Below are positions 10,492-60,654 of a stretch of DNA of 64,000 bases, piece after piece (the first letter of the stretch is position 1; each line of letters starts with the position of its first letter). The stretch is from Azospirillum humicireducens (lineage in GTDB: Bacteria > Pseudomonadota > Alphaproteobacteria > Azospirillales > Azospirillaceae). Below the pieces are notes generated by a model. The model searched no databases. It was not told the DNA's origin and saw only the letters and a program-made list of their open reading frames with translations. The stretch covers positions 2,968,001-3,032,000 of the forward strand of contig NZ_CP015285.1 in NCBI RefSeq assembly GCF_001639105.2. Reading direction: 5' to 3'. The position numbers and the translations under genes are program-made.

Positions 10492-11508
10492 TCAGGCGGT
10501 CTTCCACAGCGTGATGATCATGACACCGGCCACCGTCAGGGCGGCACCAGCCAGTTGCAGCCAGCCCATCGGCTCGGCCAGCACCAGATAGCCGAAGACG
10601 GCGGCGGCCACCGGGCCGATGGCGCCGCTCAGCGCCACCAGATTGGGGCCGACCCGCCGCAACGCCTCCGCCGTCATCAGCACGGGCAGCACCGTGCAGA
10701 CCACCGCCATCACGGCCGACAGGCCATAGACCGGCAGCGGCAGGTCCAGCGCCGACAAGGGCCGCAGTACGGCGAATTGCAGGATGCAGCACAGGCAGGC
10801 CGCCGTCATCGCATAGGCGGTGAAGCGCATGGACCCGATCCGCTGCACCACCCGGCTGCTGCCGACCAGATAGACCGAATAGAGGAAGGCCCCCATGAAG
10901 ACCAGCGCGGCCCCGGCCATGAAATTGGGATGGCCGGTCCCGATCTCCGACCACACCACCAGCGCGACGCCGGCATAGGAGACGACCAGCGCCGCCACCT
11001 CGCGCAGGCCGATCCGCTTGCCCAGGAACATGGCCGACAGCACCACCACGATGGTCGGGTAGAGGAACAGCAGCAGCCGCCCCATCCCGGCCGAGACATA
11101 ACGCAGCCCCAGGAAATCGCAGAAGCTGGCGGCGTAATAGCCGGTGACGCCAAGCCCGATGGTCAGGGCAAGGTCACGGCCGGCAATCGACGCACGCTCT
11201 CCTTTTCGGGAGCCCGACCACAGTGCCATGCCGAGGAAGAAGGGCAGCGCGAAGACCATGCGCAGCATGATCAACGTCACCGGATCGACATTGTAGCGGT
11301 AGGCCAGCTTGATGATGACCGGCCGCAGGGAAAAGGCCACCACCCCCGCCACGGCAAGCCCGAGCCCGGCCAGAAGCTGGACCGGCGGCAGGACGGACAC
11401 CGCGGCGGCGCCATCGGACGGCAGGCTGGCGGACGGCAGGCTGGCCTGGGATGCGCTGGTCTGGGACAAGGCGTTGGATCCGGTGACGGGAGAGGGAACG
11501 CCATTCAA
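10492..11508 (-). CDS. DMT-family (EamA) inner-membrane transporter
   Basis: About 300 residues of core with ten predicted membrane segments in two EamA halves; the first begins LLAGLGLAVAGVVAFSLRPV and the second around HPNFMAGAALVFMGAFLYSV. These proteins export metabolites or amino acids; the substrate cannot be told. The start is unsure. No ATG precedes the first segment. A TTG at 11508 has a strong ribosome site (GGGAGAGGGAG), while a TTG at 11469 or a GTG at 11400 would give a more normal short N-terminus. The N-terminal region carries a 15-base tandem duplication near 11417-11446. Confidence 0.8.
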   Translation of the reverse strand: MNGVPSPVTGSNALSQTSASQASLPSASLPSDGAAAVSVLPPVQLLAGLGLAVAGVVAFSLRPVIIKLAYRYNVDPVTLIMLRMVFALPFFLGMALWSGSRKGERASIAGRDLALTIGLGVTGYYAASFCDFLGLRYVSAGMGRLLLFLYPTIVVVLSAMFLGKRIGLREVAALVVSYAGVALVVWSEIGTGHPNFMAGAALVFMGAFLYSVYLVGSSRVVQRIGSMRFTAYAMTAACLCCILQFAVLRPLSALDLPLPVYGLSAVMAVVCTVLPVLMTAEALRRVGPNLVALSGAIGPVAAAVFGYLVLAEPMGWLQLAGAALTVAGVMIITLWKTA

Positions 11509-41558: not shown

Positions 41559-42821
41559 ATGTCCGCTTCCCCCTCCTCCCAGTCGCCGCTGTCCGGGCCG
41601 GCCCTTCTCGAGCGCATCGACGCGCTGGCGGCGATCAGCGCGGAGGAGGGGCGCCTGTCGCGCCTCTACCTGACGCCGGAACACCGCCGCGCCAACGACC
41701 TCGTCGCGCAGTGGATGCGCGCCGCCGGGATGGCCGTGCGGGAGGATGCCGTCGGCAACATCGTCGGCCGCTACGAGGGCGACAGGCCGGGCCTGCCGGC
41801 ATTGCTGATCGGCTCCCACCTCGACACCGTGCGGGATGCCGGGCGCTATGACGGCATGCTGGGCGTTCTGAGCGGCATCGCCGTGGTGGCGGACCTGAAC
41901 GCCCACGGCCGCCGCCTGCCCTTCGCCATCGAGGTGATCGGCTTCGGCGACGAGGAGGGGACCCGCTTCCAGTCCACCCTGATCGGCAGCCGCGCCATCG
42001 CCGGCACCTTCGACCCGGCGGTGCTGGAGACGCGCGACGCCGCCGGCACGCGGCTGGCCGACGCGATGACGGCCTTCGGACTCGATCCCGCCGCCTGGGC
42101 CACCGCCGCCTACGAGCCGCATGCCGTGCTGGCCTATGTGGAATTGCACATCGAACAGGGGCCGGTGCTGGAGGCGCTGGGCCGGCCGGTCGGCGTGGTC
42201 ACCGCCATCGCCGGCGCCACCCGGCTGGCGGTGACGGTGGAGGGCATGGCCGGCCATGCCGGCACCGTGCCGATGACCCTGCGCCGCGACGCACTGGCGG
42301 CAGCCGCCGAGATGATCCTGGCGGTGGAACAGCTCTGCTCCGGACAGGAACGGCTGGTCGGCACCGTCGGCCGAATCGAGGCGGCGCCCGGCGCCACCAA
42401 CGTCATTCCCGGCAAGGTCCGCTTCACCATCGACCTGCGCGCCGACCGCGACCCCCTGCGGCTGGAGCGGGTCGGCGCCGTCCGCGCCCGGCTGGAGGCC
42501 ATCGCCGACGCCCGCGGCGTCGCCATCGGCTTCGAAACGCTGCATGAGAGCCCCGCCGTCGCCTGCCACCCGGCGCTGATGGCGCAGTTCGCCGCCGCGG
42601 CGGCCGCGGAAGGGCTGGACGCGCCGGAGCTGCCGAGCGGCGCCGGCCACGACGCCATGGCGGTGGCGGCGCTGACCGACATCGCCATGCTGTTCGTCCG
42701 CTGCGAACGCGGCATCTCGCACAACCCGGCCGAACGGATCACCGCCGCCGATGCCGAGGCCGGCGCCCGCGTGCTCGCCCGCTTCGTCGAGAACTTCCAG
42801 CCCGCAACCTCCCTTCCGTGA
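41559..42821 (+). CDS. M20 amidohydrolase, allantoate amidohydrolase / N-carbamoylase type
   Basis: A 420-residue zinc hydrolase. Metal and catalytic blocks are in the order known for allantoate amidohydrolases and N-carbamoyl-L-amino-acid hydrolases: GSHLDTV, DGMLGVL, GFGDEEGTRF, HIEQGPVLEAL, GAGHDAMAV and ISHNPAERI. It would release ammonia and CO2 from allantoate or carbamoyl groups from ureido acids. Allantoate and ureidopropionate cannot be told apart here. The next gene, 13 bases on, is another M20 enzyme, so the two may act in sequence in ureido or peptide breakdown. Confidence 0.87.
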   Translation: MSASPSSQSPLSGPALLERIDALAAISAEEGRLSRLYLTPEHRRANDLVAQWMRAAGMAVREDAVGNIVGRYEGDRPGLPALLIGSHLDTVRDAGRYDGMLGVLSGIAVVADLNAHGRRLPFAIEVIGFGDEEGTRFQSTLIGSRAIAGTFDPAVLETRDAAGTRLADAMTAFGLDPAAWATAAYEPHAVLAYVELHIEQGPVLEALGRPVGVVTAIAGATRLAVTVEGMAGHAGTVPMTLRRDALAAAAEMILAVEQLCSGQERLVGTVGRIEAAPGATNVIPGKVRFTIDLRADRDPLRLERVGAVRARLEAIADARGVAIGFETLHESPAVACHPALMAQFAAAAAAEGLDAPELPSGAGHDAMAVAALTDIAMLFVRCERGISHNPAERITAADAEAGARVLARFVENFQPATSLP

Positions 42822-42834
42822 CGGACCGCCTGCC

Positions 42835-44073
42835 ATGACCGACCTGTCCCCTTCCCTCGCCGCCACGCTCGACGAGGCGGTGAATGCCCGCTTCGACGAG
42901 GAGGTCCGCTTCCTGGCGGAACTGGTGAAGGTGCCGTCCGACAATCCCCCCGGCGACTGCGCCCCCCACGCCGTCCGCGCCGCCGAGCTGCTGGAAGCGA
43001 TGGGCTTCACGGTGGAGCGTCATCCGGTGCCGGCCGATCTGGTGCGGGCCAACGGCATGATCAGCGCCACCAACCTGGTGATCCGCCACCGCTTCGGCGA
43101 AGGCCCGACCGTGGCCCTGAACGCCCATGGCGACGTGGTTCCGCCCGGCGAGGGCTGGTCGAGCGATCCCTATGGCGCGGAAATCCGCGACGGCGTCATG
43201 TATGGCCGCGGCGTGGCGGTGTCGAAGTCGGATTTCGCCACCTACACCTTCGCGCTGCGGGCGCTGATGGCCTCGAAGGCCCCGCTGAAGGGGACGGTCG
43301 AGCTGCACCTGACCTATGACGAGGAGGCCGGCGGCGAGATCGGGCCGAAATGGCTGCTCGACCGGGGCATTTCCAAACCGGACTATGCGGTGTCGGCCAG
43401 CTTCGCCTATTCGGTGGTGACCGGGCACAACGGTTGCCTGCATCTGGAGGTGCAGGTCGACGGCAAGTCCGCCCATGCCGCCCGCCCCGACACCGGCCAT
43501 GACGCGCTGGAGGCGGCGACCGGCATCCTGGCCGCCCTCTATGCCCACCGGCCGGACCTGGCGGCGCGCCGATCCGGCGTGACCGGCATCTCTCATCCGT
43601 CGCTGACGGTCGGGCTGATCCAGGGCGGCATCAACACCAATGTGGTGCCGGACCGCGTGACCTTCCGCCTCGACCGCCGCATGATTCCGGAGGAGACTCC
43701 GGCTGAGGTCGAGGCCGAACTGCGCACCCTGATCGAGCAGGCCGCCGCAGGCCGCGAGGGCATCCGCGTCACCGTCCGCCGCATCCTGCTGGCCCGGCCC
43801 TTCCGCTCGGTCGGCGACGCACCGCGGCTGGCCGCACTGTTCGCGGCCCATGCGCAGGAGGTGCTGGGCGTGCCGGTCGGCCAGAACGGCATCCCGCTCT
43901 ACACCGACGCCCGCCATTATTCGGAGGCAGGCATCCCCACCATCCTCTATGGCGCCGGCCCGCGCGACCTGCTGGAAGCCAACGGCCACCGCGCCGACGA
44001 AAAGCTGGTGCTGGAGGATCTGCGCAAGGCGACCCAGGTGGTGGCGCGGTCGCTGGCGGACCTGCTGGGGTAA
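42835..44073 (+). CDS. M20-family deacylase/peptidase
   Basis: A 412-residue zinc hydrolase of the ArgE/DapE kind, with NAHGDVVPPGEGW, YGRGVAVSKSDFATY and YDEEAGGEIGPKW as metal and catalytic blocks. The VSKSD form of the bridging Asp region marks a subgroup apart from the enzyme at 12605-13888. The dimerisation domain spans ~200-315. The start at 42835 (MTDLSPSL) follows the upstream amidohydrolase by 13 bases. It ends 12 bases from the convergent carrier-protein operon. Substrate unknown. Confidence 0.86.
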   Translation: MTDLSPSLAATLDEAVNARFDEEVRFLAELVKVPSDNPPGDCAPHAVRAAELLEAMGFTVERHPVPADLVRANGMISATNLVIRHRFGEGPTVALNAHGDVVPPGEGWSSDPYGAEIRDGVMYGRGVAVSKSDFATYTFALRALMASKAPLKGTVELHLTYDEEAGGEIGPKWLLDRGISKPDYAVSASFAYSVVTGHNGCLHLEVQVDGKSAHAARPDTGHDALEAATGILAALYAHRPDLAARRSGVTGISHPSLTVGLIQGGINTNVVPDRVTFRLDRRMIPEETPAEVEAELRTLIEQAAAGREGIRVTVRRILLARPFRSVGDAPRLAALFAAHAQEVLGVPVGQNGIPLYTDARHYSEAGIPTILYGAGPRDLLEANGHRADEKLVLEDLRKATQVVARSLADLLG

Positions 44074-44085
44074 AGCCTGGCGAAT

Positions 44086-45861
44086 CTACCCCACCCGCTC
44101 CCCCGACGGCAGCCCGAGGTCCCAACCGGCCAAGCCTGAGGCGGCCGGGTCGGTGGCGGCGGTGTCCAACGCGGCCAGATGGCGGTCGATCAGCAGGTTC
44201 AGCCGATCGCGCGCCTCCCACACCGTCAGGCTGTGGTCGGCGCGGTCGAGATAGACCAGCTCGATGCCGGACAGGCCGTCCAGGGCGCGGCCGCCGTCGC
44301 CCAGATGCAGATGGAACTCGGCCAAGGTCATGTCGCCGCTGCTGTAGACCAGCAGAACCCGCCTGCCTTCCGCGGAGAGGCGGCGGAACATGCGCAGCGC
44401 GTGGCGGGTCAGGCCGGTGCGGATCAGCAGCTTGCGGACGAAGCGGCCGGCCAGCCGCTTGGCCAACCCCGTCACGCGGGCGCGCTTGCGGAAGCTGGCG
44501 CGCAGCCGGGCCGGTTTCAGCGCCTCCAGCAGATAGTCGGTGGTGGAGCGGAAGGCGACCGTCCGCATCAGCTCCGCCACGGCCGTGCCGTCGCCCAGCT
44601 CGAACCGTCCGGGATTCAGCGCGACCTGCCCGACCACCCGGTCGTCGCCCAGCCCTGCATGCAGGGCGGGCGTGCCGCCGGCACACAGGCCGATGACGAC
44701 GACGCGCGCATGCCCCTGCGCTTCGAGCCAATCCAGGGCCGCCCGCAAGTCGCCGATCACCTCCCTGTGGTAGAGCAGGTTGTCGGCAAGCCCCGGCCGG
44801 TCGGGACTGTCGCCGATCCCGGCGGCGTCGATCCTGAGCGAGCAATAGCCGCGCGCCGCCAGACGGCGGGCCTGCACCACGGTGGCGCGTCCGGACCCGA
44901 CATGGTGGGTGGCGCCGCTGTTCAGGAACAGGATGGCCGGCCGGCTGCCGGCCGGGTCGGCCAGGACGGGGGTGCAATAGATGCCGAACAGCTCCGGACC
45001 CTTGCCGAAGAAGACCGGACGCTCGACCGCGGTCGTGGTCATCAGCCCGGCCGGGCGGTGCGGCGGCGGGGTGGCGCCCGTGGCGACCGGCCCGGCGGCG
45101 ATCCAGCGCAGGACCGGGTCGAACACCGCAGCGGCCTGCGCACGCTGCGGCTGCTGGACCATCTCCATCATGCCGCTGATGCCCATCGGCTCCGCCGCCG
45201 CGCCCATCGCACGCCAGCGGGCCGCCAGCTTCACCGGCGTCTTCGCGTCAGGCCGGTCGGCGATCAGGATGCGCGGAGCCGGCGGCACCGGCTGGTCGCA
45301 GGGGGCAAGGCCGCTCAGCGCCAGTGCGGTCTCCGGCGTCAGCGGCATGCCGATCACGTTCAGCCAGGAGGCGCGTTCCGGCGGCTCCGGGTTGCAGACC
45401 GGGCGCAGCACCATGGTGGCCAGCGTCTGCAGCTCCCGCACCGCCTTGCGGCCGGAGGTGATCGGCGCCAGCAGCGCCAGCGCATCCACCCCCTGCCCGT
45501 CCTCGGTCAGTTCCAGCGCCGCCGCGGTGGCGAGCAGCGAGCCCAGGCGGAAGCCGACAAGGACCAGTTCGGTGACGCCGGTGTCCTCGCGCAGGCGGCG
45601 CACCGCCGCCTTGACGCCGTCCAGCCACGCGCGCACCCGGTCCGGCTCGCTGTCGTCACCGGCGGAATCGCCGGAACCCGGATAGTCGAACCGCAAGGTC
45701 GGCAGGCCCGCGGCGGCCAAATTCTCCGCGAAACTCTTCCAGGCGCGGTGTACGCAGAGCTCCTCATGTCCGTAGGGCCCGCACAGCACCACCCCGCGCA
45801 GCCCCGGCGCCGGGTGCAGCCATCCGAAACACCCCTCGAACACCATCGGTGTCGGCTTCAT
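44086..45861 (-). CDS. Fused double alpha/beta-hydrolase with non-serine nucleophile elbows
   Basis: A 591-residue protein with two alpha/beta-hydrolase domains in tandem (~5-255 and ~280-570). The first resembles exosortase-associated hydrolases (GPYGHEELCVHRAWKSFAEN, FDYPGSGDSAGD) but has GFRLG at 103-107, with Arg in place of the nucleophile Ser. The second has GLCAG at 391-395, with Cys393 as possible nucleophile, and a late DRADHSLTV His. It may be a thioesterase, acyltransferase or dead scaffold. It overlaps the GH2 gene by ATGA and is last in the carrier-protein operon. Confidence 0.8.
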   Translation of the reverse strand: MKPTPMVFEGCFGWLHPAPGLRGVVLCGPYGHEELCVHRAWKSFAENLAAAGLPTLRFDYPGSGDSAGDDSEPDRVRAWLDGVKAAVRRLREDTGVTELVLVGFRLGSLLATAAALELTEDGQGVDALALLAPITSGRKAVRELQTLATMVLRPVCNPEPPERASWLNVIGMPLTPETALALSGLAPCDQPVPPAPRILIADRPDAKTPVKLAARWRAMGAAAEPMGISGMMEMVQQPQRAQAAAVFDPVLRWIAAGPVATGATPPPHRPAGLMTTTAVERPVFFGKGPELFGIYCTPVLADPAGSRPAILFLNSGATHHVGSGRATVVQARRLAARGYCSLRIDAAGIGDSPDRPGLADNLLYHREVIGDLRAALDWLEAQGHARVVVIGLCAGGTPALHAGLGDDRVVGQVALNPGRFELGDGTAVAELMRTVAFRSTTDYLLEALKPARLRASFRKRARVTGLAKRLAGRFVRKLLIRTGLTRHALRMFRRLSAEGRRVLLVYSSGDMTLAEFHLHLGDGGRALDGLSGIELVYLDRADHSLTVWEARDRLNLLIDRHLAALDTAATDPAASGLAGWDLGLPSGERVG

Positions 45862-48323
45862 GCGTCCCCCCTGTAACGGACGGGCGCCAGCGCGTTCAGC
45901 GCATGGAGCTCCCCATCCGGCACGCCACGGCCGGTCCCGGCCCGCGGCCGCAGGCGGACGACCCGCTCGACACCGGGGGACAGGTGGAACCAGGCATCCT
46001 CCGCCCGGAACCGCCCATCCTCGACATGCACCGAACAGGCGAGCCTCCGGGTGGCAAGCCGCAACGCCCAGCCGTCGCCCTGCCGCTCCACCGCCGCCGT
46101 CAGGCCGAGATCGGCGCGCGGCAGCGAGCGGCCCTTCGGGAAATAATGAAATTCATCGATCGGTTCCGCGTCCCTTCCGGTCAGCAGCAATTGCGCCGAC
46201 ACCACATCCTGTGGGATCGGCCCAAACCTGTAAGTGTAAGTCGTGTCAAAAAAGCGGTCGGTCATCGCTGCGGCGGGGAGCATGACCGCCGCCCGCCCCG
46301 GCAACGTCACCGGCCGCTCCGCCTTCAACACCGGAACCGTCCCGTCGCGCCAGGCCGTCAACCGCAGCAGCGCCTCCACCGGCCGGGCGGTGTCGTTGAC
46401 CAGATGGACGGCCAACCCGTTCACCCCCTCGTCGGTCAGGATGACGCGCAGCGGACGGAAAGCCCGTTTCAGCGCATGCCAGGCCGGCTTCGGCGTGCCG
46501 TCGGCGGCGACCACGCCCCAGCCGGCCCCCGGCCAGGGGTCGCGCCATTGCCAGACCAGCCCGCCGGCACAGCCGGACCCGGCACGCCGCCATTCGTCGA
46601 ACACCGCCTGCATCACCTCCCCCGTCACCGCAAGGGACAGGCGGCGGTAGCGGTCTGGCTCCTCATGGCGCAGGCGCCGCGGATCGACGCCGTAGAGCGC
46701 CTCCAGATAATGCTCCCGCACATCCTCGAAATCCCAGGAGGCGCCGGGATCGCGCGGAACCCGCTCCTTCCAGCGGGGATGGTGGAGCGCCGGGACGCCG
46801 AGCGGGTCATCCTCCGGCAGGTTGGAGAAGGCGAGGCATTCGGCGGCGAAGCGCACGTCGGCCCGCCGGGCATCGTCCAGCGGCCTCATATAGGCGCCGA
46901 CGCCGTAGTAATGGGTCACCCCGGCATTGGCGACGAAGGGCAGCGGCCCGCCGCTGGGGGAGTTGGGCAGCTGGATCAGATCGGGCCGCCGCGCCGTCGC
47001 CTCCTCCGCAATCGCTGCCGTCAGTGCTTCTTGCGTCCAGACGGCGCGGGGCAGGCCGAGCATGGCCGCCTGCTGCTCCATCTCGCTGCCGCCGCACAGC
47101 ACCGCCAAGCAGGGCGAGGCCTGGGTGCGGTCGAGCAATTGGGCGATTTCCGCCCGCACGCTGTCGAGAAAGGCCGGATCGCCGGGGTAGTCGAAGTTGG
47201 CGAACATGGCGTCCTGCCAGACCAGGATGCCCAGCTCGTCACACAGCTCGAAGAAGGCGTCGCCCTCATACAGCATGGTGCCGCCGACGCGGACCATGTT
47301 GGCCCCGGCCTCCCGCATCCGCCGCAGTTCGGGTTCGTAGACGGCGCGCTCCGCCGACAGGCCGACCGGATCGACCGGCACCCAGCAGCCGCCACGGCAG
47401 AACACCCGCTCGCCATTCACCAGCAGGGCGAAGCCGTTGCCGTCGGTTCCCCGGTCCACCGCCAGCGAGCGGAAACCGACGCGCCCCAGATCGACCTCCA
47501 CGTTGCCCCCCGGCATGGCGATCCGCGCGACCACGCCATGCAGCACCGGCTCGCCATGGGTGTGCGGCCACCAGGGCTCCACCCCCGACAAGGTCATGTC
47601 GGCGTGGAAGGCGTCGATGCCGTCGAAGCGGAGCGGCGCGACCTGCCCGGCCACCTCGACAGAGCCGGTCATGTCGGACGACGTGCCGTCCACGGTCAGG
47701 CGCAGCGACAGCCGCCCGTCGCGACCGTCAAAGCTGCTGCGCAGGTCGGCGCCCAGCACACGGACGGGACCGGTCTCCTCCACCAGTTCCACCGGGCGGT
47801 AGGGGCCGACCGCGTGGACCGGCGGGCACCAGCCCGGCATATGGCCCAGCAGGGTCGTACGGACGAAGCGCAGCCCTGCCGGCTCGGCCAGCTTCGTTCG
47901 CCAGCGGGCGCGGCCTTTCTTCGCCGCCAGCACCGGATGCAGGGCGTGGAAACGGATGGACAGCTCCGCCTCCCCGTTCAGCATCACCGGCACCTCATGG
48001 GCGAGGAACATGCTGTCGGAGGTCAGGATGCGCTCCCCATCCAGCCACACGTCCGCGATGGTGGCGAGACCGTGGAAGCGCAGGATGCGCGGACCATGGC
48101 CGGTCAGCCGGGTGCGGTAGACGATATCCTTGTCATCCAGCGGAAGCGGATCGTCCAGAAACCACAGCCCGGCCGCTTGCAGGGCCTGCGCCGCCGTTCC
48201 GGGCACCGGAGCCGGCACGGCGTCCCCCAACTCCCCCACCGCGCCGGGCGGCAGCAGGGTCAGGTTCCATCCCTCCGTCAGCGCGGTGATCCGCCGTCCC
48301 GTGACCGATCGGATGAGCGCCAT
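45858..48323 (-). CDS. Family 2 glycoside hydrolase (beta-mannosidase-like)
   Basis: An 821-residue protein of GH2 architecture: N-terminal jelly-roll sugar-binding domain (~15-180), Ig-like domain (~185-290), catalytic barrel (~295-620) and C-terminal beta domains. The acid/base is likely Glu414 in LCGGSEMEQQ and the nucleophile Glu495 in VRFAAECLAFS, by analogy with beta-mannosidases. There is no signal peptide, so it should act in the cytoplasm. It lies six bases after the DUF1839 gene and overlaps the hydrolase gene. A role in trimming or attaching a sugar to the operon product is inference. Confidence 0.85.
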   Translation of the reverse strand: MALIRSVTGRRITALTEGWNLTLLPPGAVGELGDAVPAPVPGTAAQALQAAGLWFLDDPLPLDDKDIVYRTRLTGHGPRILRFHGLATIADVWLDGERILTSDSMFLAHEVPVMLNGEAELSIRFHALHPVLAAKKGRARWRTKLAEPAGLRFVRTTLLGHMPGWCPPVHAVGPYRPVELVEETGPVRVLGADLRSSFDGRDGRLSLRLTVDGTSSDMTGSVEVAGQVAPLRFDGIDAFHADMTLSGVEPWWPHTHGEPVLHGVVARIAMPGGNVEVDLGRVGFRSLAVDRGTDGNGFALLVNGERVFCRGGCWVPVDPVGLSAERAVYEPELRRMREAGANMVRVGGTMLYEGDAFFELCDELGILVWQDAMFANFDYPGDPAFLDSVRAEIAQLLDRTQASPCLAVLCGGSEMEQQAAMLGLPRAVWTQEALTAAIAEEATARRPDLIQLPNSPSGGPLPFVANAGVTHYYGVGAYMRPLDDARRADVRFAAECLAFSNLPEDDPLGVPALHHPRWKERVPRDPGASWDFEDVREHYLEALYGVDPRRLRHEEPDRYRRLSLAVTGEVMQAVFDEWRRAGSGCAGGLVWQWRDPWPGAGWGVVAADGTPKPAWHALKRAFRPLRVILTDEGVNGLAVHLVNDTARPVEALLRLTAWRDGTVPVLKAERPVTLPGRAAVMLPAAAMTDRFFDTTYTYRFGPIPQDVVSAQLLLTGRDAEPIDEFHYFPKGRSLPRADLGLTAAVERQGDGWALRLATRRLACSVHVEDGRFRAEDAWFHLSPGVERVVRLRPRAGTGRGVPDGELHALNALAPVRYRGDA

Positions 48324-48329
48324 CGCCGG

Positions 48330-49286
48330 TCACCCGCAATGCCGGGCCAACGTGCCCAGGGCGGTGTCGTAGGCGCGTTCCATCCGCTCGAAGCCGCCGC
48401 TCAGGTCGGGCGCCTTGCGCCGGGCAACCGTCCGGGCCAGCTGGAACTGCATCGCCTTGGCGCCCTCGGCGATGATCCGGCAGGCCTCCTCCGCCTCCAC
48501 CGGCCCGTCGAGCCAGCGGGTATGGGCGCCCAGCAGCTCGAAATTGGCGCCGAACTGACGCAGCAGGTTGAAGGCATAGAGGTGGAAATACTCCAGCTGC
48601 CGCGACAGCAGCCGATCCAGATGCTCCGGGAAAGCGGCGCGGTAGGCCGCGATGGGGTTCTCCGCCGGCCGGCGGGCGAGGTGGCGGCGCAGAAGCGCCA
48701 GCGACGCATCCCTCAGCGCCCGGCCTTCCAGCGCCGGCTGCGCCGGCTTCACGAACTCCACATAGGGGAACAGCGGCCCCGCCGCCGCCGCCGCGACCCC
48801 CTCGTAATCGGCGCCCTCCAGCCGGTGGAAGCCGGCATTGTGGAAGTAATCCATGGTCCGGGCCGCCGGGTCGATGCGGACGATGCCGACCGTGGTCTTG
48901 ACATGGGTGGTGCCATAGGAGGTGCCGCGGGTGTCCGGCAGATGGAAGCCGTCGACCTCCACCAGCACCAGCCCGCCATCCGGACTGCGGTTCAGCTGCT
49001 CCGCCACATGGGTTTCGACGCTGTCGTAGATCGCCAGTTCCTGCACGCGCAGGCCGTACAGCGTTTCCAGATCCTCCAGCGGCACCTTGAAGAAGGTGAA
49101 CTGGTCGCCCTCGAAATCCTGGGTGACGGTGAAGCCGAGCATCGCCAGCGGGTCGAGCCCACGGGCGTGCAGCGCCTCGATCCACAGATCGACGTAGCAG
49201 TTGGTCTCCAGCCAGATGCGCTCGCCCCGGTGCAGGGGATGGCGGTCGTGGCCGTCGGGCTGGTGCCGGGTCCACATGGCGTCCAT
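48330..49286 (-). CDS. DUF1839 family protein
   Basis: A 318-residue soluble protein. WLETNCYVDLWIEALHARGL, FEGDQFTFFKVPLEDLETLYG and VLVEVDGFHLPDTRGTSY are marks of DUF1839, a proteobacterial family of unknown role. The conserved Cys, His and Asp residues in the N-terminal half look like a possible papain-like or transglutaminase-like active site, which is a guess. The start at 49286 overlaps the stop of the amino acid:carrier-protein ligase gene as TGATG, so the two are made together. It could transfer the aminoacyl group from the carrier protein. Confidence 0.8.
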   Translation of the reverse strand: MDAMWTRHQPDGHDRHPLHRGERIWLETNCYVDLWIEALHARGLDPLAMLGFTVTQDFEGDQFTFFKVPLEDLETLYGLRVQELAIYDSVETHVAEQLNRSPDGGLVLVEVDGFHLPDTRGTSYGTTHVKTTVGIVRIDPAARTMDYFHNAGFHRLEGADYEGVAAAAAGPLFPYVEFVKPAQPALEGRALRDASLALLRRHLARRPAENPIAAYRAAFPEHLDRLLSRQLEYFHLYAFNLLRQFGANFELLGAHTRWLDGPVEAEEACRIIAEGAKAMQFQLARTVARRKAPDLSGGFERMERAYDTALGTLARHCG

Positions 49287-50212
49287 CAGCCCCACAGCAC
49301 CTTGCGGACCGCCGCCGGCCAGCCGGCCGGGTCGAAGCCGTGATGGCGGAACAGCGCCAGCGCCACCCGCTCCATCCCGAAGCCGACACATGCGGTATGG
49401 GCGACGCCGCCGTCGGCGGTGCGGATGTCCCAGATATGGCCGAAATGGTCCTGGTGATAGTTGAAGCTGAGGCAGGCGGTCGGCTTCTGCGTGCTGGTGA
49501 CGGGGATCAGCAGCTCGAACTTCAGCTTCTGCTCGCGCTGGCTGCTCGACAGCATGGCGCCGACACGGCCGAAGAAGGGATCGTTGGCGACATCGATCTC
49601 CAGCGGCACCTCCAGCGAAGCCATCATCTCGCGCCCGCGCTCCAGCCACGTCTCGCGGAACTCCACGACCTGCTCCGGCGTGCCGATGCGGATGTATTCG
49701 CGCATGCGGAACATCTGCATGCGGGCCGGGTCGATCGAGGGTTCGTGCCGGAAACAGTAGGAGAAGACGTCGATCACCGTGCCGCCGTCGGGCAGCGCAC
49801 CACGCCGGGCGATGGTCGGATAGACCGGATAGCAGGCGGCGGGCGTCATCACCACGTCGGTCGCGACCTGATCCTCGGTCCAGTCCTGCCCCTCCTCCAG
49901 TCGGCGCAGCAGAGTGCGGTGCGCCTTCTCGTCGCCGCCGAAGCTGTGGATGGTGCCGGCCAGATGGGGGAAGCTCTTCAGATAGTCGCTTTCCTCGAAA
50001 TACCGGCGGTTCAGGGCCGGGGGAAAGCGCATCGCCTCCGCCCCGTCGGCACCGCCCCAGCGGGTGACCAGCGCGTCGAAGCGCTCCACCACCTCCTCGA
50101 AGACGCCGCTGCGGCCATAGAGGCCGTCCACGCCGGTGGGGATCAGCAGGCCGGCAGCCACCAGCTCGTCGCGATAGGCCGCCTGGGCCGCCCCGATGTC
50201 GACCATGTTCAT
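49286..50212 (-). CDS. Amino acid:[carrier protein] ligase, class II aminoacyl-tRNA-synthetase homologue
   Basis: A 308-residue catalytic core of a class II synthetase without any tRNA-binding domain. Motif 2 reads [20 protein letters not shown] and motif 3 [12 protein letters not shown]. Cys127, Glu172 and Cys275 fit the zinc site of atypical seryl-tRNA synthetases and of the Bradyrhizobium ligase Bll0957, which loads glycine or alanine on a carrier protein. The partner carrier gene is two genes upstream in the same operon. The ATG at 50212 overlaps the dehydrogenase stop as ATGA. The amino acid used cannot be read from the sequence. Confidence 0.9.
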
Positions 50213-51402
50213 TCGAAGGGCCCCGATCCGTCCCGCTGGACGAGAAGCTGGGTGGCGATGTGCGACATGATCCGGTCGTTGCCGATCATGAGGGCGGCGG
50301 AATGGGCATCGCGCAGGTGCCGGCCGAGACTGTAGGGCGTGTCGTTGCGGTAGCCGGCCAGCCCGCAGGTGCGGATCGCCGCCTCCACCACCTCGCGCAC
50401 CAGCTCCGACGTGGTGACCTTCAGCGTGGCCATCGCCGTGGCGAAGGACAGTGTGGTGAGCAGTTCCGGCGAGCCGCAGGCCAGTTCGTACTGGCGGATG
50501 GCGGTCAGGATGACGGTCTTCATCTGCTGCAGCTTCGCCGTCGCCTCCGCCAGCCGCACCGCACAGGGCGGGGTGGTGCCGGGCTTGCGCCTCGCCTCCG
50601 ACCGGACGAAGGCGCGGGCGCGGCTGACCGCGTCGGCAGCGATGCCGAGCCAGGTGCTGCTCCACAGGATATGGGTCACTGGCAGCATGGTCCGGGCCGA
50701 CAAATCGGCGTAGGGCAGCGGCAGGATCTGGTCGGTGACGCCCGCCGCCTCCAGCCGGTAGCCGTCGGAACAGGTGCCGCGCATCCCCATCGCGTCCCAC
50801 GGCGTCGTCTTCTCCAGCCGGTAATCGTCGCTGGTCAGCACCGCCAGCACCTGATCCGACGACGGCGCGTCGGGATTGCGGCGGGCGGTGACCAGGATCA
50901 CGTCCGACTGGTCGCCGTAGGAGATGACCGAGGCATTCTTCGCCAGGGTGAAGCGGCCCTCCCCGGCCTCCCGATCCGCCTTCACGGCGCAGACGCTGTT
51001 GCGGATGTCGCCGCCGGTCTCGGCCTCCGTCGTGGCGGAACCGAGAAGCAGCTGGTCGGCCGCCATGCGCGCCATCAGCTCGCGGTGCCAGCCATTGCTG
51101 CCATGATTGACCAGACAGGCGACCTGAATCTGGTGCATGGCATAGATCATGCCGGTGGCGCCGCAGCCGCGGGCAAGCGCATGGCAGGCCGCCGCCACCT
51201 CGAACAGCGACGCGCCACCGCCGCCGAGATCCGCCGGGACCATGACTCCCAGCATCCGGTCCCGGCGCAGGGCGTCGAAGGCCTCGGCGGGGAAGCGGCT
51301 GTCCCGGTCCACCGCGTCGGCGTGGGCGGCGGCGATGTCCGCCCCGATGGCGCGCGCGCGGGCCGAAAGGTTCGGAGCCGCGCCGGCCGGGGCGGCGTTC
51401 AC
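50209..51402 (-). CDS. Acyl-CoA-dehydrogenase-like flavoprotein
   Basis: A 397-residue flavoprotein fold: helical N-terminal domain (~15-125, [20 protein letters not shown]), beta domain (~130-235, [17 protein letters not shown]) and C-terminal helical domain (~240-390) ending with [18 protein letters not shown]. This C-terminus is nearer to the acyl-CoA dehydrogenase type 2 group (monooxygenase-like) than to fatty-acid enzymes. Homologues oxidise carrier-protein-bound amino acids in natural-product pathways. The GTG at 51402 overlaps the carrier-protein stop (GTGA). It may oxidise the aminoacyl thioester made by this operon. Confidence 0.87.
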
Positions 51403-51746
51403 GCTTCGCTCCCGTCGATCAGGCCGCGTACAGCGTCGCGGATCGCCGCGATGCTCTCGAAGGTTCGGCGGTTCAGCAGCTTTTCCGGAAACTCGACGTC
51501 GAACTGCTCCTCCAGCCCCAGCATCAGGCCGACACAACCATGAGAGGTGAGTCCGGCAGCGTAGAGATCGTCATCGACGGCGAGCCTGCCGGCATCGACC
51601 GCCAGTCCGCCGCATTCGGCCAGGACCGAACGGATGCCGGCGATCGTCCCGTCATCGACTCCGCCACCGGCGGCGGGGGGTAGCCCGGCACTCCCGGCCG
51701 CTTGATGGGTCGGGGTGGGGAAAGGCGGGCTGGCGTCCTGCGGCAT
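51399..51746 (-). CDS. Acyl/peptidyl carrier protein
   Basis: A 115-residue protein. A loose Pro/Gly-rich N-terminus (~1-32) leads into a carrier domain (~33-112). Ser68 in [15 protein letters not shown] is the expected phosphopantetheine site; the GLTSH form is that of carrier proteins paired with amino acid:[carrier protein] ligases rather than the DSL of fatty-acid ACP. First gene of the six-gene operon. The ATG at 51746 (MPQDASPP) has a GAGGGA ribosome site; an upstream GTG at 51788 is an alternative. No phosphopantetheinyl transferase is nearby. Confidence 0.88.
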
Positions 51747-55046: not shown

Positions 55047-55760
55047 CTACGGCCCGTCCGCCAGGTTCCGCAGGGCGTCCACGTCGCAGTGGAAGCGGTT
55101 GGGCCGCAGCTCGTTCAGCAGGCCCTGCCGCTTCAGTTCGGCGACGACGCGGCTGGCGGTCTCGGTGGTGATGCCCAGCACGGCGCCGACATCCTCCCGC
55201 CCGAAGAAGTCGCATTCGCCATGGTCGTCCACCAGGGTCAGGAACAGCCGGGCGACCCGCGCCCGCGCGCTGCCGGTGCCGAGTTCGACCAGGAAGGCGT
55301 CGGCGCGCTCCACCGCCTGATGCCAGCGCCGCATCAACTGCTGGTGCAGGTGCTGCGTTTCCTCCGACAGGCGCTGGATCACGGCACGGGGAATGCGGCA
55401 GGTCAGCACCGGATGGATGGCGATGGCGGTGTGGCGATAGGGTTCGCCCAGCGCCGCTTCGAGCCCGGCGGTGTCGCCGGTGCGCAGAAGCCGGACGATA
55501 CGCTGGCCGCCGTTGGGCAGATACTGCACCAGCTTCACCAACCCGCCGCGCACGGTGTAGAGGGCCGTCGGCTCGTCGCCGACATGGTAGAGCGCCGCAC
55601 CCGGCGCCACCGTCATTTCGTCGATGGGCAGATGGATCAGGTTGAAATCGGATTCGGTCAGATCGGCGAACAGTGCCGATTCCCGGATGCCACACCCCCT
55701 GCAGTTCGCCAGCCCCCGCCACGCCGCGTTGATGCTGGTCTTCTTCACGCTCATGTCCAT
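55047..55760 (-). CDS. Crp/Fnr-family transcription regulator, FNR-like
   Basis: A 237-residue regulator: cyclic-nucleotide-binding-like beta roll (~30-145), dimer helix (~145-175) and winged helix (~180-235). The recognition helix reads ITTETASRVV, with the Glu, Ser and Arg that in FNR read TTGAT half-sites. Cys20 and Cys23 (NCRGCGI) and Cys121 align with FNR cluster ligands, but the third N-terminal Cys (position ~29) is missing, so a 4Fe-4S cluster would need another ligand. It probably senses oxygen, redox state or NO. It lies 111 bases downstream of the ABC gene. Confidence 0.88.
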   Translation of the reverse strand: MDMSVKKTSINAAWRGLANCRGCGIRESALFADLTESDFNLIHLPIDEMTVAPGAALYHVGDEPTALYTVRGGLVKLVQYLPNGGQRIVRLLRTGDTAGLEAALGEPYRHTAIAIHPVLTCRIPRAVIQRLSEETQHLHQQLMRRWHQAVERADAFLVELGTGSARARVARLFLTLVDDHGECDFFGREDVGAVLGITTETASRVVAELKRQGLLNELRPNRFHCDVDALRNLADGP

Positions 55761-55871
55761 GGTTTTGCGGGGCGACGATGCTGTGGGTACGAACGGTGGT
55801 CGCCGTGCAGTGTGGCAGCTTTTTGGATGCGTTCCAAGGATGCGGCGATCACCGTCCGCAATGGGGAAACC

Positions 55872-57704
55872 TCACGCCGCGCTCTCCGCCACCGGCTGGG
55901 CTTGGCGGACCTCCTCGCGCAGGGTGACGGCGCCGTTGGTGCGTTCCAGGATCAGTTTGCGGCTGTGATGGGCGTCGAGCCCGGCATGGTGGCCGATGGT
56001 CAGCAGGGTCGCGTTGGGCAGCTCCCGCTCCATCAGGGTCAGCAACTCCTCCTCGGCCGGAGGATCGAGGCTGTCGGTGGCGTCCTCCAGGAAGATCCAA
56101 TCGGGGCGGCGGATCAGCAGCCGGGCGAAACCCAACCGCTGCCGGTCGGGCACCGACAGCACCTCGTCCCAACGGTCGGTGCCGTCCAGCCGGTCGACCA
56201 GATCGGGCAAGCCGACGCTGACCAGCGCCTCCGCCGCCCTCTCGTCCGCCACCGAAGAGGCCGGGCCGGGATAGGCCAGCACCGCGCGCAGGCTGTCATG
56301 CGGCAGGTAGGGGCGTTCCGGCATGAAGAAGACGCGGGTGTGGGCCGGCAGGGTGATGCGCCCGCTGCCCCACGGCCAGACGCCGGCCACGGCGCGGAAC
56401 AGGCGGATGGTCGCCGTCGCATCGCCGCCGATCAGCACCCGGTCGCCCGGACGGACCTCCAGATCGAAGGCATGGACGACGGCCGTGCCGTTCGGCTCGT
56501 CGATGGATACGCCGCTGAAGGTCAGCGTCTGGTGGTCGTCGGAGCGCACGACCTGGATATGGCCGTCCGGCACCTCGCAGACCTCGCGGTCCAGCCGGAC
56601 CAGCGCGTCGTGCAGGTTCAGCACGCGCTCCACCGACGCCCGCCACTCGGCGACGCGCGGCAGATTGTCGATGGGCCAGGACAGCGCGCCGACCGTCTGC
56701 TGGAAGGCCTGCGCCGTCTGCATCAGCACGCCCAGCGAGATGGTCCCGGCAATGTAGCGGGGGGCGGCGACCAGGATCGGGAAGGCGGCCGACAGCACCG
56801 AATAGCTGGCGCTGAACACCATCATATGGCTGAGAGCGCGGGTCTGGCCGGTCCAGCCGCGCACCACCCCGCCGAACAGGGTGGCGAGGTGGCCGCGCTC
56901 CGCCGACTCCCCGTGCAGCAGCGCGATGGTCTGGCCATTCTCGCGGATGCGGGCCAGCGCGAAGCGGAAATCAGCCTCGTAACCCTGGCGCCGGTTCACG
57001 GCATTGACCAGCGGCTGTCCGATCAGCATGGCGATGGTCGTGCCCATGGCGGCGTAGAGCAGCGCCACGAACAGCAGATGGCCCGGCACCGACAGCTCGG
57101 TCCCGAACAGGGTGACCGACAGCGTGCCCGACAGCATCCACAGGATGTTGGTGAAGCTGATGAGCAGAAGCGCGCAATAGGTCAGCGAATGGCCGAGGTC
57201 GATGGCCATCTCCGCGGTGATGCGGATGTCCTCGGCGATGCGGCCATCGGGGTTGTCGTGTTCGCCCGGCATATAGGCGATCTGGTGGTGCCGGCCGCGG
57301 CGCAGCCAGTCCTCCAGCAGCTTGCGGGTCAGCCAGTCGCGCCAGCCCATCTGCAGCCGGCGCTTCACCCGCAGATGCAGCACGACGATGACGATGTTGT
57401 AGACGATGATCAGCCCGACCAGCCCGATCATCGTCAGGAAGCGGTCCATGGAGCGCTGTTCGAGCGCGTCGAACAGCCGCTCGCTCCACAGGTTGATCAG
57501 GACGGGGATCGACACCTGCCCGACGGTGAGCACGAACAGCGCCACGGTCAGGGCCCAGACGGTCACCCGCGACCGACCCCGCCAGTAACCGCCCGCCAGC
57601 CGGAGGAAGCGGCGGGCGAAGCCGGGCGCCCCCTCGCCGGTCGCGGGCTCCCCGGATTTGGCACCGCCGGGTTTGGCACCTCTCTCGTCGGTCATGTCGG
57701 CCAT
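55872..57704 (-). CDS. SbmA/YddA-like ABC half-transporter with degenerate ATP-binding motifs
   Basis: A 610-residue fusion. The N-terminal membrane domain (~45-340, five or six segments) is of the ABC transmembrane region 2 type (YddA/peroxisomal ABC-D group). The C-terminal ATPase-like domain (~385-600) has lost key residues: Walker A is GGDATATI near residue 426 (no Lys), the Q-loop Gln is Glu (FMPERP), the signature is LSVPDRQR, and Walker B is WIFLEDAT with Glu and Asp order changed. The H-loop His remains. ATP hydrolysis is unlikely, yet the frame is intact. Cargo unknown. Confidence 0.88.
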   Translation of the reverse strand: MADMTDERGAKPGGAKSGEPATGEGAPGFARRFLRLAGGYWRGRSRVTVWALTVALFVLTVGQVSIPVLINLWSERLFDALEQRSMDRFLTMIGLVGLIIVYNIVIVVLHLRVKRRLQMGWRDWLTRKLLEDWLRRGRHHQIAYMPGEHDNPDGRIAEDIRITAEMAIDLGHSLTYCALLLISFTNILWMLSGTLSVTLFGTELSVPGHLLFVALLYAAMGTTIAMLIGQPLVNAVNRRQGYEADFRFALARIRENGQTIALLHGESAERGHLATLFGGVVRGWTGQTRALSHMMVFSASYSVLSAAFPILVAAPRYIAGTISLGVLMQTAQAFQQTVGALSWPIDNLPRVAEWRASVERVLNLHDALVRLDREVCEVPDGHIQVVRSDDHQTLTFSGVSIDEPNGTAVVHAFDLEVRPGDRVLIGGDATATIRLFRAVAGVWPWGSGRITLPAHTRVFFMPERPYLPHDSLRAVLAYPGPASSVADERAAEALVSVGLPDLVDRLDGTDRWDEVLSVPDRQRLGFARLLIRRPDWIFLEDATDSLDPPAEEELLTLMERELPNATLLTIGHHAGLDAHHSRKLILERTNGAVTLREEVRQAQPVAESAA

Positions 57705-57738
57705 TCCGGGCCTCCGCCCTCATTCCCTCACCGTCCGT

Positions 57739-57768
57739 ATTACTAACGAATAGGACGTGCCTTGACAA
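57739..57768 (-). promoter_or_regulatory. Possible promoter of the degenerate ABC gene
   Basis: On the minus strand, TTGTCA (57768-57763) and AGTAAT (57744-57739) are 18 bases apart, about 35 bases before the ABC start. It is in the only AT-rich part of the 92-base gap after the GH1 gene. The match to consensus is moderate. Confidence 0.35.
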
Positions 57769-57796
57769 AAGTACAGGGGTAGGGGCGAAGAAAGGC

Positions 57797-59161
57797 TTAA
57801 AGCCTTCCCGTTCTCACAACCTCGGCGAGGAAGCGGTAGCTGTCCTTCGGCATGCGGTCCAGCGTGTCGTAATCGACGCGCACGATGCCGAACCGCTTCG
57901 ACAGGCCGAAGGCCCATTCGAAATTGTCCAGCAGACTCCAGCACAGATAGCCCTTGACGTTGCAGCCGTCGGCCAGCGCCTGCGCCACCGATTCCAGATG
58001 CTCTCGATAGTACAGCACACGCTCCGCGTCATGGATCTGGCCGTCCGGCGTCACCACGTCGTCATAGGCGCAGCCGTTCTCCGCGATGAAGACGGCGGGA
58101 TTGCCGTAATCGGTGCGGAATTCGGTCAGCAGGTCGTAAAGCCCCTCCGGCTGGACCGGCCAGGCCATGCCCGTCCAGCGCCGGCATTGCGCCTCGCCCC
58201 AGCCGACATCGAAGGGCCGGCCATCCTCATGCTTCATCGTCATGCGGGAGTAGTAGTTGATGCCCAGAAGGTCGATGGGGTAGCGGATCGCCTCCTCATC
58301 GCCGGGCAGAACGAACTCAGCCATCTTTTCGGCCAGCAGCGCCGGGATTTGCCCGCGCATCAGCCCGTCCAGCGCGACCCGGTTCCACACCGCGTCCCAG
58401 CGGGCGGTCGCGGCCACATCCTCCGGCCGGTCGCTGTCGGGAACTGCCGGCTGCAGGTTGAGCACGGTGCCGAGCGTCAGCCCGGAATGCTCCGCCGCGA
58501 TGGCGCGGAGCGCGGCACCCTGCGCCAGATTCTGGTGGTGCAGGGCCCGCAGGATGCCCTGTTCGCCCAGCTTGTGACCGGGAGCATGCTCGCCCACGCC
58601 ATAGCCGAAGATGGCGACCACGTTCGGCTCGTTCAGCATCATCCAGGTCTTGACCCGATCGGCCAGCCGGGCGGTGACGATGCGGGCATAATCGGCGAAG
58701 GGGCCGACGATCTCCCGCCCCTGCCAGCCGCCGGCATCCTCCAGCGGCTGCGGCAGATCCCAGTGGTAGAGGCAGGCCATCGGCGTGATCCCCGCCTCCA
58801 GCAGCGCATCGACCAGCCGGTCGTAGAAATCGAGTCCGCGCGTCTCCACCGCCCCCGTCCCCGTCGGCAGGATGCGCGGCCAGGCAATCGAGAAGCGATA
58901 GCTGTCGAAGCCCGCCGCCTTCATCAACGCGATGTCTTCCGGGTAGCGGTGGTAATGATCGCAGGCGACGGCGGCGCTGCTGCCATCCATGATGCGGCCT
59001 TGCGCGGTAAAGGTATCCCACACGCAAGGCCCGCGCCCGTCGGCATCGACCGCCCCTTCGATCTGGTAGGAGGCGGTCGACGCCCCCCAGCGGAAATCCG
59101 GCGGGAAACTCAGCGGCTTGGCATCGGCGGCCTGGGACACGGGCTGGCTGAAGCTGTCCAT
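57797..59161 (-). CDS. Cytoplasmic family 1 beta-glucosidase
   Basis: A 454-residue GH1 enzyme without a signal peptide. The N-terminal [20 protein letters not shown], acid/base Glu in [13 protein letters not shown], nucleophile Glu in [12 protein letters not shown] and C-terminal [16 protein letters not shown] are all present. It cleaves beta-glucosides or related disaccharides in the cytoplasm. It is similar to the Tat-exported enzyme at 34277-35734. It is divergent from the GH4 gene with a 209-base gap, so the two may share control. The degenerate ABC gene follows by 92 bases. Confidence 0.95.
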
Positions 59162-59370
59162 TCATTTCCTCCCACGGGGTTGGTTCGTTTTCCCCAGCAT
59201 GCCCCACCCTGCGGCCCTTCGCCATGGGACAAGCACGCGAAGGGGCCGGGCGCGACGCGGTGGCGCAGCCGCAGGTGGTTGCATGCAAGCCCTGTGCGGA
59301 CATGCCCGAAAGGCGTAGCCTGTTCCGACAAGACGGCGCCCAGCCGCTCCGAAAACGGAGGAATCGCATC

Positions 59371-60654
59371 ATGCCCAACACCACCAGGATCGTCTTCATC
59401 GGCGCGGGCAGCGCCGCCTTCGGGCTCAGCCTGTTCCAGGACCTGTTCTCCACCACCGAGTTGGCCGGCAGCACCCTGACGCTGGTCGACACCAATCCGG
59501 AGGCGCTCGACCGCATGGCGGCGCTGGCGGACGTGCTGAACCGCCGCGGTGGTGCCGGCATCACCATCGAGAAGACCACCGACCGCAAGGCCGCCCTGCA
59601 GGGCGCCGGCTTCGTACTGTGCGCCATCGCCATCGACCGCAACCGGCTGTGGAGGCTGGATTTCGAGGTGCCGAAGAAGCACGGCATCCGCCACACTCTG
59701 GGCGAGAACGGCGGTCCCGGCGGGCTGTTCTTCACGCTGCGCACCCTGCCGCTGATCGTCGACATCGTCCGCGACGTCGAGGCGATCTGCCCCGACGCGC
59801 TGTTCATCAACCTGTCCAACCCGGAAAGCCGCATCGTGCTCGGCCTGTCGCGCTGCACCTCCGTGCGGACGCTGGGGCTCTGCCACGGCATTTTCCTGGC
59901 GCGCTGGTTCATCTGCCAGATCCTGGGCATGGCCGAGAAGGAGGTCGATGTCTGGGGCGCCGGGCTGAACCACTTCCAATGGCTGACCGCGATCCGCGAG
60001 AAGGCGACGGGGCGCGACCTCTACCCCCTGCTGCGCGAGAAGGAGGCGACGCACGACCCGTCCTTCACGCCCCTGGCCCGGCGCCTGTTCCACGCCTTCG
60101 GCCTGTGGGTGACGCCCAGCGACGACCACACCGGCGAATTCCTGCCCTATGGCTGGGAAGCCGGGGAGCACGGCTTCGACTTCCGCCACGACGAAGACGG
60201 CCGCATCATCCTGCGCGACCTGATGGACGGGGTGATCGACGGCAGCAAGCCGATCCCCGACGACTGGACCAAACCGTCCTGGGGCGAGCGGGCGGTGGCG
60301 GTGATCGCCGGCCAGCTGCACAACCAGAAGCGCTTCATCGAGAGCGGCATCGTCATCAACCGCGGCGTCATCCCCGGCCTGCCCGACGAGCTGGCGGTGG
60401 AGGTGCCGCTGATGGCAGACGCCGCCGGCATCCATCCGGTCTCGCTCGGCCGCCTGCCCGACGGCATCGTCAAGCTGCTGTCGGTCCAGGCCAACGTGCA
60501 GCAATTGTCTGTGGAGGCGGCGCTGCACGGATCGAAGGAGCTTGCGCTGCAGGCCCTGCTGATCGACCCCGTCATCAATTCCAGCACCGCCGCCGTCGCC
60601 ATCCTGGACGAGCTGTGGGAGGCGAACCGGCCCTACATCCGCCCCTGTCTCTGA
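59371..60654 (+). CDS. Family 4 glycoside hydrolase (NAD-dependent alpha-glycosidase type)
   Basis: A 427-residue enzyme of the GH4 fold. The Rossmann loop [17 protein letters not shown] binds [15 protein letters not shown] with LCHGIF carries the metal-binding region, and [11 protein letters not shown] the substrate region. GH4 enzymes use NAD and Mn2+ with an oxidation-elimination route to cut alpha- or beta-glycosides, including galacturonides and melibiose. The exact sugar is unclear. The start at 59371 has a strong GGAGGAA ribosome site. It ends one base before the convergent MFS gene. Confidence 0.9.

Follow-up and report, generated by a model that had tools for sequence, protein, structure and literature searches.

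In the AlmEFG system, which adds glycine to lipid A, and in the Dlt system for D-alanylation, an activated amino acid is attached to a carrier protein, from which it goes on to a glycan of the cell surface. The gene cassette studied here would resemble them in amino acid activation and carrier loading; AlmEFG and Dlt, however, rely on another family of adenylating enzymes and on membrane-associated transferases, and are not known to include a flavoprotein or a glycosidase. For a homologue of the amino acid:[carrier protein] ligases, which are class II synthetase-like, aminoacylation of a carrier has been reported. In Bradyrhizobium this type of ligase is represented by Bll0957 (PDB 3mey and 4h2w), and in a phaR mutant bll0957 and bll0958 (acyl-CoA dehydrogenase) were each 3.0-fold up according to PMC10888616. 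Atu2573, a cassette gene, is named as a network hub gene in PMC11941606. A 2022 review calls the role unknown (PMC9437257).

In 2010, a note in proof in Biology Direct linked an ACP, a redox enzyme, a conserved uncharacterised protein and a glycosidase to the ligase (PMC2922099). It was predicted that Atu2574, presumably the DUF1839 protein, forms an amide between an amino acid and the amine of a cell-surface sugar; for the redox enzyme, a role in altering the aminoacyl moiety was foreseen (PMC2922099). Experiments on the product of the cassette were not found in the open-licence literature.

We report that the same neighbourhood, i.e. ligase, ACP, redox enzyme, conserved ORF and glycosidase, is present in a stretch of 64,000 nucleotides (the window) from Azospirillum humicireducens, whose genome comprises 6.86 Mb on seven contigs. 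The original prediction had stated that no system with this set of genes was described, which does not hold given the 2010 report (PMC2922099). That report refers to the redox enzyme as a Rossmann-fold protein, whereas the enzyme here has the acyl-CoA-dehydrogenase fold, and the note in proof itself mentions neither the double hydrolase nor the form of the cassette that is free of DUF1839 (PMC2922099). Beyond it, our data add this DUF1839-free architecture, seen in 12 of 28 ligase genomes, and a flavoprotein in which Ile replaces the catalytic Glu of dehydrogenases. They further add a GH2 protein with both catalytic Glu residues, an invariant Cys in the second domain of the hydrolase, a setting within exopolysaccharide loci that concerns Burkholderiaceae above all, and a locus at which the carrier and DUF1839 genes alone are intact.

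Organisation of the locus in A. humicireducens

The six genes lie on the minus strand between positions 44086 and 51746 of the window. Re-reading of the sequence gave six open frames with the ends originally proposed and one stop per gene, and all five junctions read as originally proposed. The first gene encodes a carrier protein with a phosphopantetheine site (51399..51746; PF00550 25.5 bits and NF005480 93.3 bits, over cut-off). It is followed by genes for a flavoprotein of the acyl-CoA-dehydrogenase fold that lacks the canonical catalytic Glu (50209..51402; PF02771 and PF00441 over cut-off), for the class II synthetase-like amino acid:[carrier protein] ligase (49286..50212; NF005479) and for a DUF1839 protein, predicted to be papain-like and likely an acyltransferase (48330..49286; PF08893, 411.6 bits). 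The last two encode a GH2 glycosidase of the beta-mannosidase type, in which family scan and alignment place both catalytic Glu residues (45858..48323), and a double alpha/beta-hydrolase, an optional member with two alpha/beta-hydrolase domains by family scan (44086..45861). Read on the minus strand, the junctions are gcGTGAac (carrier/flavoprotein), gaATGAac (flavoprotein/ligase), gcTGATGga (ligase/DUF1839) and gcATGAag (GH2/hydrolase), with a 6-base gap between DUF1839 and GH2. The flavoprotein starts with GTG at 51402; the carrier start at 51746 is uncertain, since among relatives the gene is annotated with 249 nt in A. lipoferum 4B but with 330 nt in A. brasilense.

Upstream the operon is bordered by a divergent gene, annotated in A. 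lipoferum as encoding a methyl-accepting chemotaxis protein, and downstream by a convergent gene of the M20 type. Since a consensus scan gave no terminator, and no promoter at the start of the operon, we only infer that the six genes share a single transcript. The nearest relatives of the cassette are found in Azospirillum, and plasmid AZO_p5 of A. lipoferum 4B carries all six genes in identical order. Judging from the A. lipoferum 4B annotation, two M20-type genes are located at 41559-44073 of the window, a pair that was matched in Azospirillum loci only, and genes for a GH1 beta-glucosidase, an alpha-galactosidase, a Crp/Fnr protein and an ABC transporter at 55047-60654.

Recurrence of the gene set and its two architectures

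Recurrence was studied in 80 DUF1839 loci, which are the best 80 of 584 confirmed matches, and their counts therefore favour close relatives; a phylum sample of 398 genomes is less biased, and a class sample of 289 genomes overlaps with it. Among the best 80 of the 584 loci, 74 have the carrier, flavoprotein, ligase, DUF1839 and GH2 genes on one strand in the same order. The remaining six comprise three in which GH2 is missing (3/80), two without flavoprotein and ligase, and one that is a 3.5-kb contig. The double hydrolase gene was present inside the fetched flanks of 34 of these best 80 loci, on the same strand downstream in 24 and upstream in one, and on the opposite strand in nine. Hence, the proposed six-gene set stands as a conserved unit of five genes, while the double hydrolase is optional and falls outside this core.

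In the phylum sample, DUF1839 is present in 16 genomes and the ligase, over cut-off, in 28, including 12 of the 382 genomes that lack DUF1839. The 28 exclude 16 of the 44 genomes with a ligase match of E <= 0.001, as these score below the cut-off; in two of the 16 that were inspected (L147 and L148) the flavoprotein is absent. By match coordinates the distance between DUF1839 and ligase is 30-126 bp in 16/16 genomes, and GH2 comes after DUF1839 in the same 16/16 (window included). The flavoprotein adjoins the ligase in all 28 genomes, and 16 of them have DUF1839 and GH2 as well; this neighbourhood search thus bears out the idea of a unit built around the ligase. In the class sample, DUF1839 was found in four genomes, each time adjacent to the ligase (4/4), and the ligase over cut-off in seven, with GH2 at 3/4 DUF1839 loci and the flavoprotein at 6/7 ligase loci. 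GH2 was not seen in the 1.5 kb available downstream in genome G186 of this sample, and at another of its loci (L161) carrier and ligase are present and the flavoprotein is absent. One TAA codon lies in frame within the ligase match of genome G465 (L129).

For co-occurrence of DUF1839 and ligase, Fisher's test gave p = 2e-21 (phylum) and 1e-7 (class) with genomes treated as independent, though they are related, and the clustering is far beyond chance. For the six proteins, the correlations between identity matrices amount to r = 0.92-0.98, and 0/200 permutations were as high, which fits inheritance as one unit and would also be expected of any stably linked genes. That the genes are mere neighbours without a common pathway appears extremely improbable given the order kept in 74 of the best 80 of 584 loci, the adjacency in 16/16 genomes of the phylum sample and the stop/start overlaps, even if the hydrolase is optional.

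In all 12 DUF1839-free ligase genomes of the phylum sample the flavoprotein gene directly precedes the ligase gene, and in five of the seven longer regions of this kind (L149-L155) a divergent carrier gene was detected, four by tblastn and the one in L151 by blastp. As these genomes keep the flavoprotein-ligase pair, often together with a carrier, the ligase, flavoprotein and carrier look like a core, to which DUF1839 and GH2 form one downstream module. In L154 and L155 the ligase is immediately followed by MetY-like and MetA-like genes, whose relatives lie farther from it in L162 of the class sample; homoserine is a conceivable acceptor at such loci. These MetY-like (O-acetylhomoserine sulfhydrylase) and MetA-like genes are located at 9720-12012 in L154, where the proteins were subjected to family scan, at 5697-7989 in L155 and at 14338-16613 in L162. 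For the protein after the ligase in L149 and L150, a GNAT-like identity suggested by eye was dropped since Pfam gave no such match.

Predicted functions of the encoded proteins

Taken together, we tentatively favour, as the best explanation of the cassette as a whole, an aminoacyl-thioester pathway of mostly soluble proteins that would end in transfer catalysed by DUF1839, perhaps to a sugar. In the first step, a small amino acid, for which glycine is the probable candidate, would be adenylated by the ligase and loaded onto the phosphopantetheine of the carrier; such loading by the ligase is very probable. The ligase scores 522.7 bits against NF005479 (cut-off 357), covering model positions 17-317 of 318, and its closest solved relative is Bll0957 (323-325 bits over residues 19-306, i.e. 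288 residues). Cys127, Glu172 and Cys275, which we take to be zinc ligands, align with Bll0957 and are invariant in 79/79 proteins from the window and the best 80 of 584 loci. In the same set of loci, the attachment Ser is kept in 58/58 carriers, i.e. 57 of 79 loci with a carrier found by tblastn and, in addition, the window. Residue counts here and below refer to proteins obtained by codon-score gene calling and filtered by length, with one GH2 row dropped. The likeness to the Bradyrhizobium ligase consists in the 325-bit match. In the DUF1839-free loci L149 and L150, from genomes of 7.5-8 Mb, the carrier is divergent, and DUF1839 and GH2 were not found there.

Next, the flavoprotein would work on the carrier-bound aminoacyl group, and that it acts on this group seems fairly likely. 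Its N- and C-terminal Acyl-CoA_dh domains are over cut-off and the middle domain, PF02770, is below (19.9 vs 33.3). In acyl-CoA dehydrogenases the catalytic Glu sits in a C-terminal YEGT motif; Ile372 of the flavoprotein aligns to this position in the YEGT of 8i4p, and the family has Ile in 75/79 and Val in 4/79 proteins (window and best 80 of 584 loci). None of 25 flavoproteins drawn from both architectures has an acidic residue there, while His243 is invariant and the motif RD..S...M..NDR is also kept. Profile scores were highest with the dehydrogenase 7p98 (92 bits), followed by two enzymes of the nitrososynthase type, 3m9v (78) and the nitrososynthase 3mxl (77). Since 7p98 itself carries Thr in place of the Glu, lacking this residue is by itself compatible with dehydrogenation. 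Ordinary alpha,beta-dehydrogenation is nonetheless unlikely, because Ile replaces the canonical Glu and a beta carbon is absent from a glycyl thioester, and oxidation at the alpha-carbon or nitrogen would be the likeliest alternative. Nitrososynthases of the acyl-CoA-dehydrogenase fold act on aminosugars. In its most specific form, the carrier-bound glycyl group would be oxidised or oxygenated at the nitrogen or alpha-carbon by the flavoprotein before DUF1839 puts the oxidised amino acid on a sugar; this combination is improbable, but if true it would mean that a glycan or glycoside is decorated in a way not described so far.

In the third step, Cys30 of DUF1839 would accept the acyl group from the carrier, for transfer to a hydroxyl or amine that might belong to a sugar. 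According to a survey from 2023, DUF1839 is a member of the papain-like superfamily, has a Cys-(Thr/Ser)-His site and may take part in processing glycans at the cell wall in an acyl-CoA-dependent manner (PMC10318531). Cys30 is present in 79/81 proteins (two gaps) and His149 in 81/81, and a Thr is conserved as well (window and best 80 of 584 loci). In the same survey, the superfamily also includes BtrH, the papain-like acyl carrier protein:aminoglycoside acyltransferase of butirosin biosynthesis (PMC10318531). A closer homology to BtrH acyltransferases was considered and set aside, as one hhalign comparison gave a probability of 1.1% (E 0.047), i.e. no significant profile similarity, with controls at 0.56 (reversed), 0.10 (flavoprotein), 0.35 (ligase), 0.33 (hydrolase) and 0.75 (GH2). 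Searches for BtrH_N in six DUF1839 proteins gave no match up to E = 10, and DUF1839 against PDB sequences gave nothing up to E = 1. Two DUF1839 proteins (P0016 and P0018) are labelled serine--tRNA ligase in their source records, apparently a mislabel. An extra DUF1839 gene is located on the opposite strand at 14232-15197 in L159, approximately 4 kb past the cassette's own, and a lone one at 13947-14933 in L105; the latter is close to the conjugative-transfer region of a Rhizobium plasmid, and the ligase was not found on that plasmid.

Loci L092 (Paraburkholderia ribeironis, 9577-10945) and L093 (P. translucens, 9724-10954) have open carrier and DUF1839 genes and lack flavoprotein and ligase, with GH2 broken in the former and not found in the latter; the ligase is encoded elsewhere in each genome. 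The sequence between carrier and DUF1839 aligns between the two, which points to one ancestral deletion. Comparing L092 with L093, dN/dS is approximately 0.17 (0.11/0.66) for DUF1839 and 0.14 (0.13/0.96) for the carrier, values that would indicate purifying selection on both genes, albeit from one event only and at a high level of synonymous divergence (dS 0.66 and 0.96). Because both genes stay open at low dN/dS while the ligase sits elsewhere, this single event suggests that the location of the ligase gene does not matter for the action of DUF1839 on the carrier, and overall we consider it likely that the carrier is what DUF1839 acts on. The two loci may instead reflect simple decay, in line with the state of GH2, the single event and the dS values, as opposed to the low dN/dS. 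A decayed copy is also present in L173 (13456-15450), where partial ligase and GH2 matches surround an open DUF1839 gene; transposase and NRPS genes are nearby, and a fuller cassette copy resides on the same plasmid.

As the papain-like superfamily includes transglutaminases and deconjugating proteases (PMC10318531), DUF1839 could alternatively modify a protein in a transglutaminase-like manner, moving the carrier-bound amino acid to a side chain or an amino terminus. This would agree with some Rhizobiales copies that adjoin genes for elongation factor P and an EpmA-like protein, but such genes are found at few loci only, and a sugar is indicated by GH2, which accompanies DUF1839 in 16/16 phylum-sample genomes; we regard protein modification as quite improbable.

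With a sugar as a quite possible acceptor, GH2 would, in a fourth step, act in the cytoplasm on an acceptor or product that contains a sugar. Glu414 and Glu495, presumably the catalytic pair, align with Glu residues of 2vjx and are kept in 74/74 proteins (window and best 80 of 584 loci), and a hydrophobic N-terminal stretch was not found in GH2. From these alignments, it is predicted to be a retaining glycosidase with intact catalytic residues.

The double hydrolase has a GxRxG motif without nucleophile in its N-terminal half (Arg 31/35, Gly 4/35) and GxCxG in 35/35 in its C-terminal half (Cys393 in 35/35), with Asp510 and Asp542-His543 in 34/35 (one gap). A hydrophobic stretch of 19 residues is present in 13/35, and double hydrolases therefore need not be soluble. 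In 8/8 proteins tested the C-terminal half resembles TIGR03100 and the N-terminal half TIGR03101, i.e. the exosortase-A-associated hydrolases, from which the double hydrolase differs in that both halves are fused in one chain and the N-terminal half has no nucleophile; all scores lie below the curated cut-offs for TIGR03100 (101 vs 168.45 bits) and TIGR03101 (99.5 vs 202.75). The literature consulted gave nothing useful on an exosortase link. Where present, its Cys domain might act as an editing thioesterase or a second acyltransferase, which would be the weakest step of the scheme.

Genomic settings and the destination of the product

Genes of seven exopolysaccharide-type families, which include Bac_transf, Wzc, Poly_export, glycosyltransferases and a Wzy_C match below cut-off, are common beside the Burkholderiaceae cassettes: among the full-flank loci in the best 80 of 584, 43/44 have at least one of the seven and 27/44 have three or more. 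The Burkholderiaceae loci share synteny and thus amount to approximately one independent case. Beside the other full-flank loci of this set the seven clusters are absent (0/21 for the Azospirillum group and 0/6 for the rest), so the polysaccharide link concerns mainly one lineage; as the families are BLAST clusters, with one representative each checked in Pfam, these zeros mean that no similar protein is present and not that polysaccharide genes of any kind are absent.

The conserved core includes neither a glycosyltransferase nor a transporter. Elsewhere, in Shinella the carrier gene is preceded, at a distance of approximately 6-9 kb, by genes for an O-antigen ligase and GumC, a Rhizobiales locus (L080) has a flippase-type gene downstream of the cassette, genes for a sulfotransferase and a GT9 protein are located 5-8 kb upstream on an A. 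brasilense plasmid, and ArnT-like and LTA-synthase-like genes flank the cassette on a Mycetohabitans plasmid; no polysaccharide genes are among the listed features of three other plasmid copies. On a Rhizobium gallicum plasmid (L171, 2577-17473), the cassette comes directly after nifHDK...fdxB and an exopolysaccharide repressor gene. In L083 (4682-7486) genes for elongation factor P, an EpmA-like (class II synthetase-like) and an EpmB-like (radical SAM) protein lie just upstream of the cassette, and clusters related to this group occur in L167 and L168.

A cell-surface polysaccharide as the final destination is possible, yet somewhat doubtful. The product might instead be a soluble small molecule (a signal, a toxin or a protected metabolite) that contains an amino acid and a sugar and involves no cell-surface glycan; the sugar would then be a protecting group taken off by GH2 inside the cell. 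This agrees with the lack of transmembrane stretches in carrier, flavoprotein, ligase and DUF1839 and of an N-terminal hydrophobic stretch in GH2, with the many unrelated settings of the cassette, including plasmids, and with Azospirillum loci (best 80 of 584) that adjoin no exopolysaccharide cluster. Given the Burkholderiaceae setting, and since no conserved exporter or resistance gene was seen across lineages, we nevertheless consider a soluble product rather unlikely. Feeding of non-ribosomal peptide synthesis, with the carrier as a stand-alone loading module, is a proposal ascribed to the discoverers of 2010 (PMC2922099). It would suit the aminoacyl-carrier chemistry and the position of the decayed copy in L173 near an NRPS gene, but is very improbable, since neither a condensation domain nor an NRPS gene is among the identified neighbour clusters seen in at least 6 of the best 80 of 584 loci.

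For the aminoacyl-thioester pathway we tentatively favour, the carrier and DUF1839 constitute the smallest unit for testing. The cassette occurs in many plant- and soil-associated bacteria and encodes a real, conserved and probably functional pathway as predicted in 2010, of which the window holds one more copy, here with the optional hydrolase. Finally, by pointing to the enzymes that likely act next, the conserved cassette makes the question testable with a few soluble proteins.
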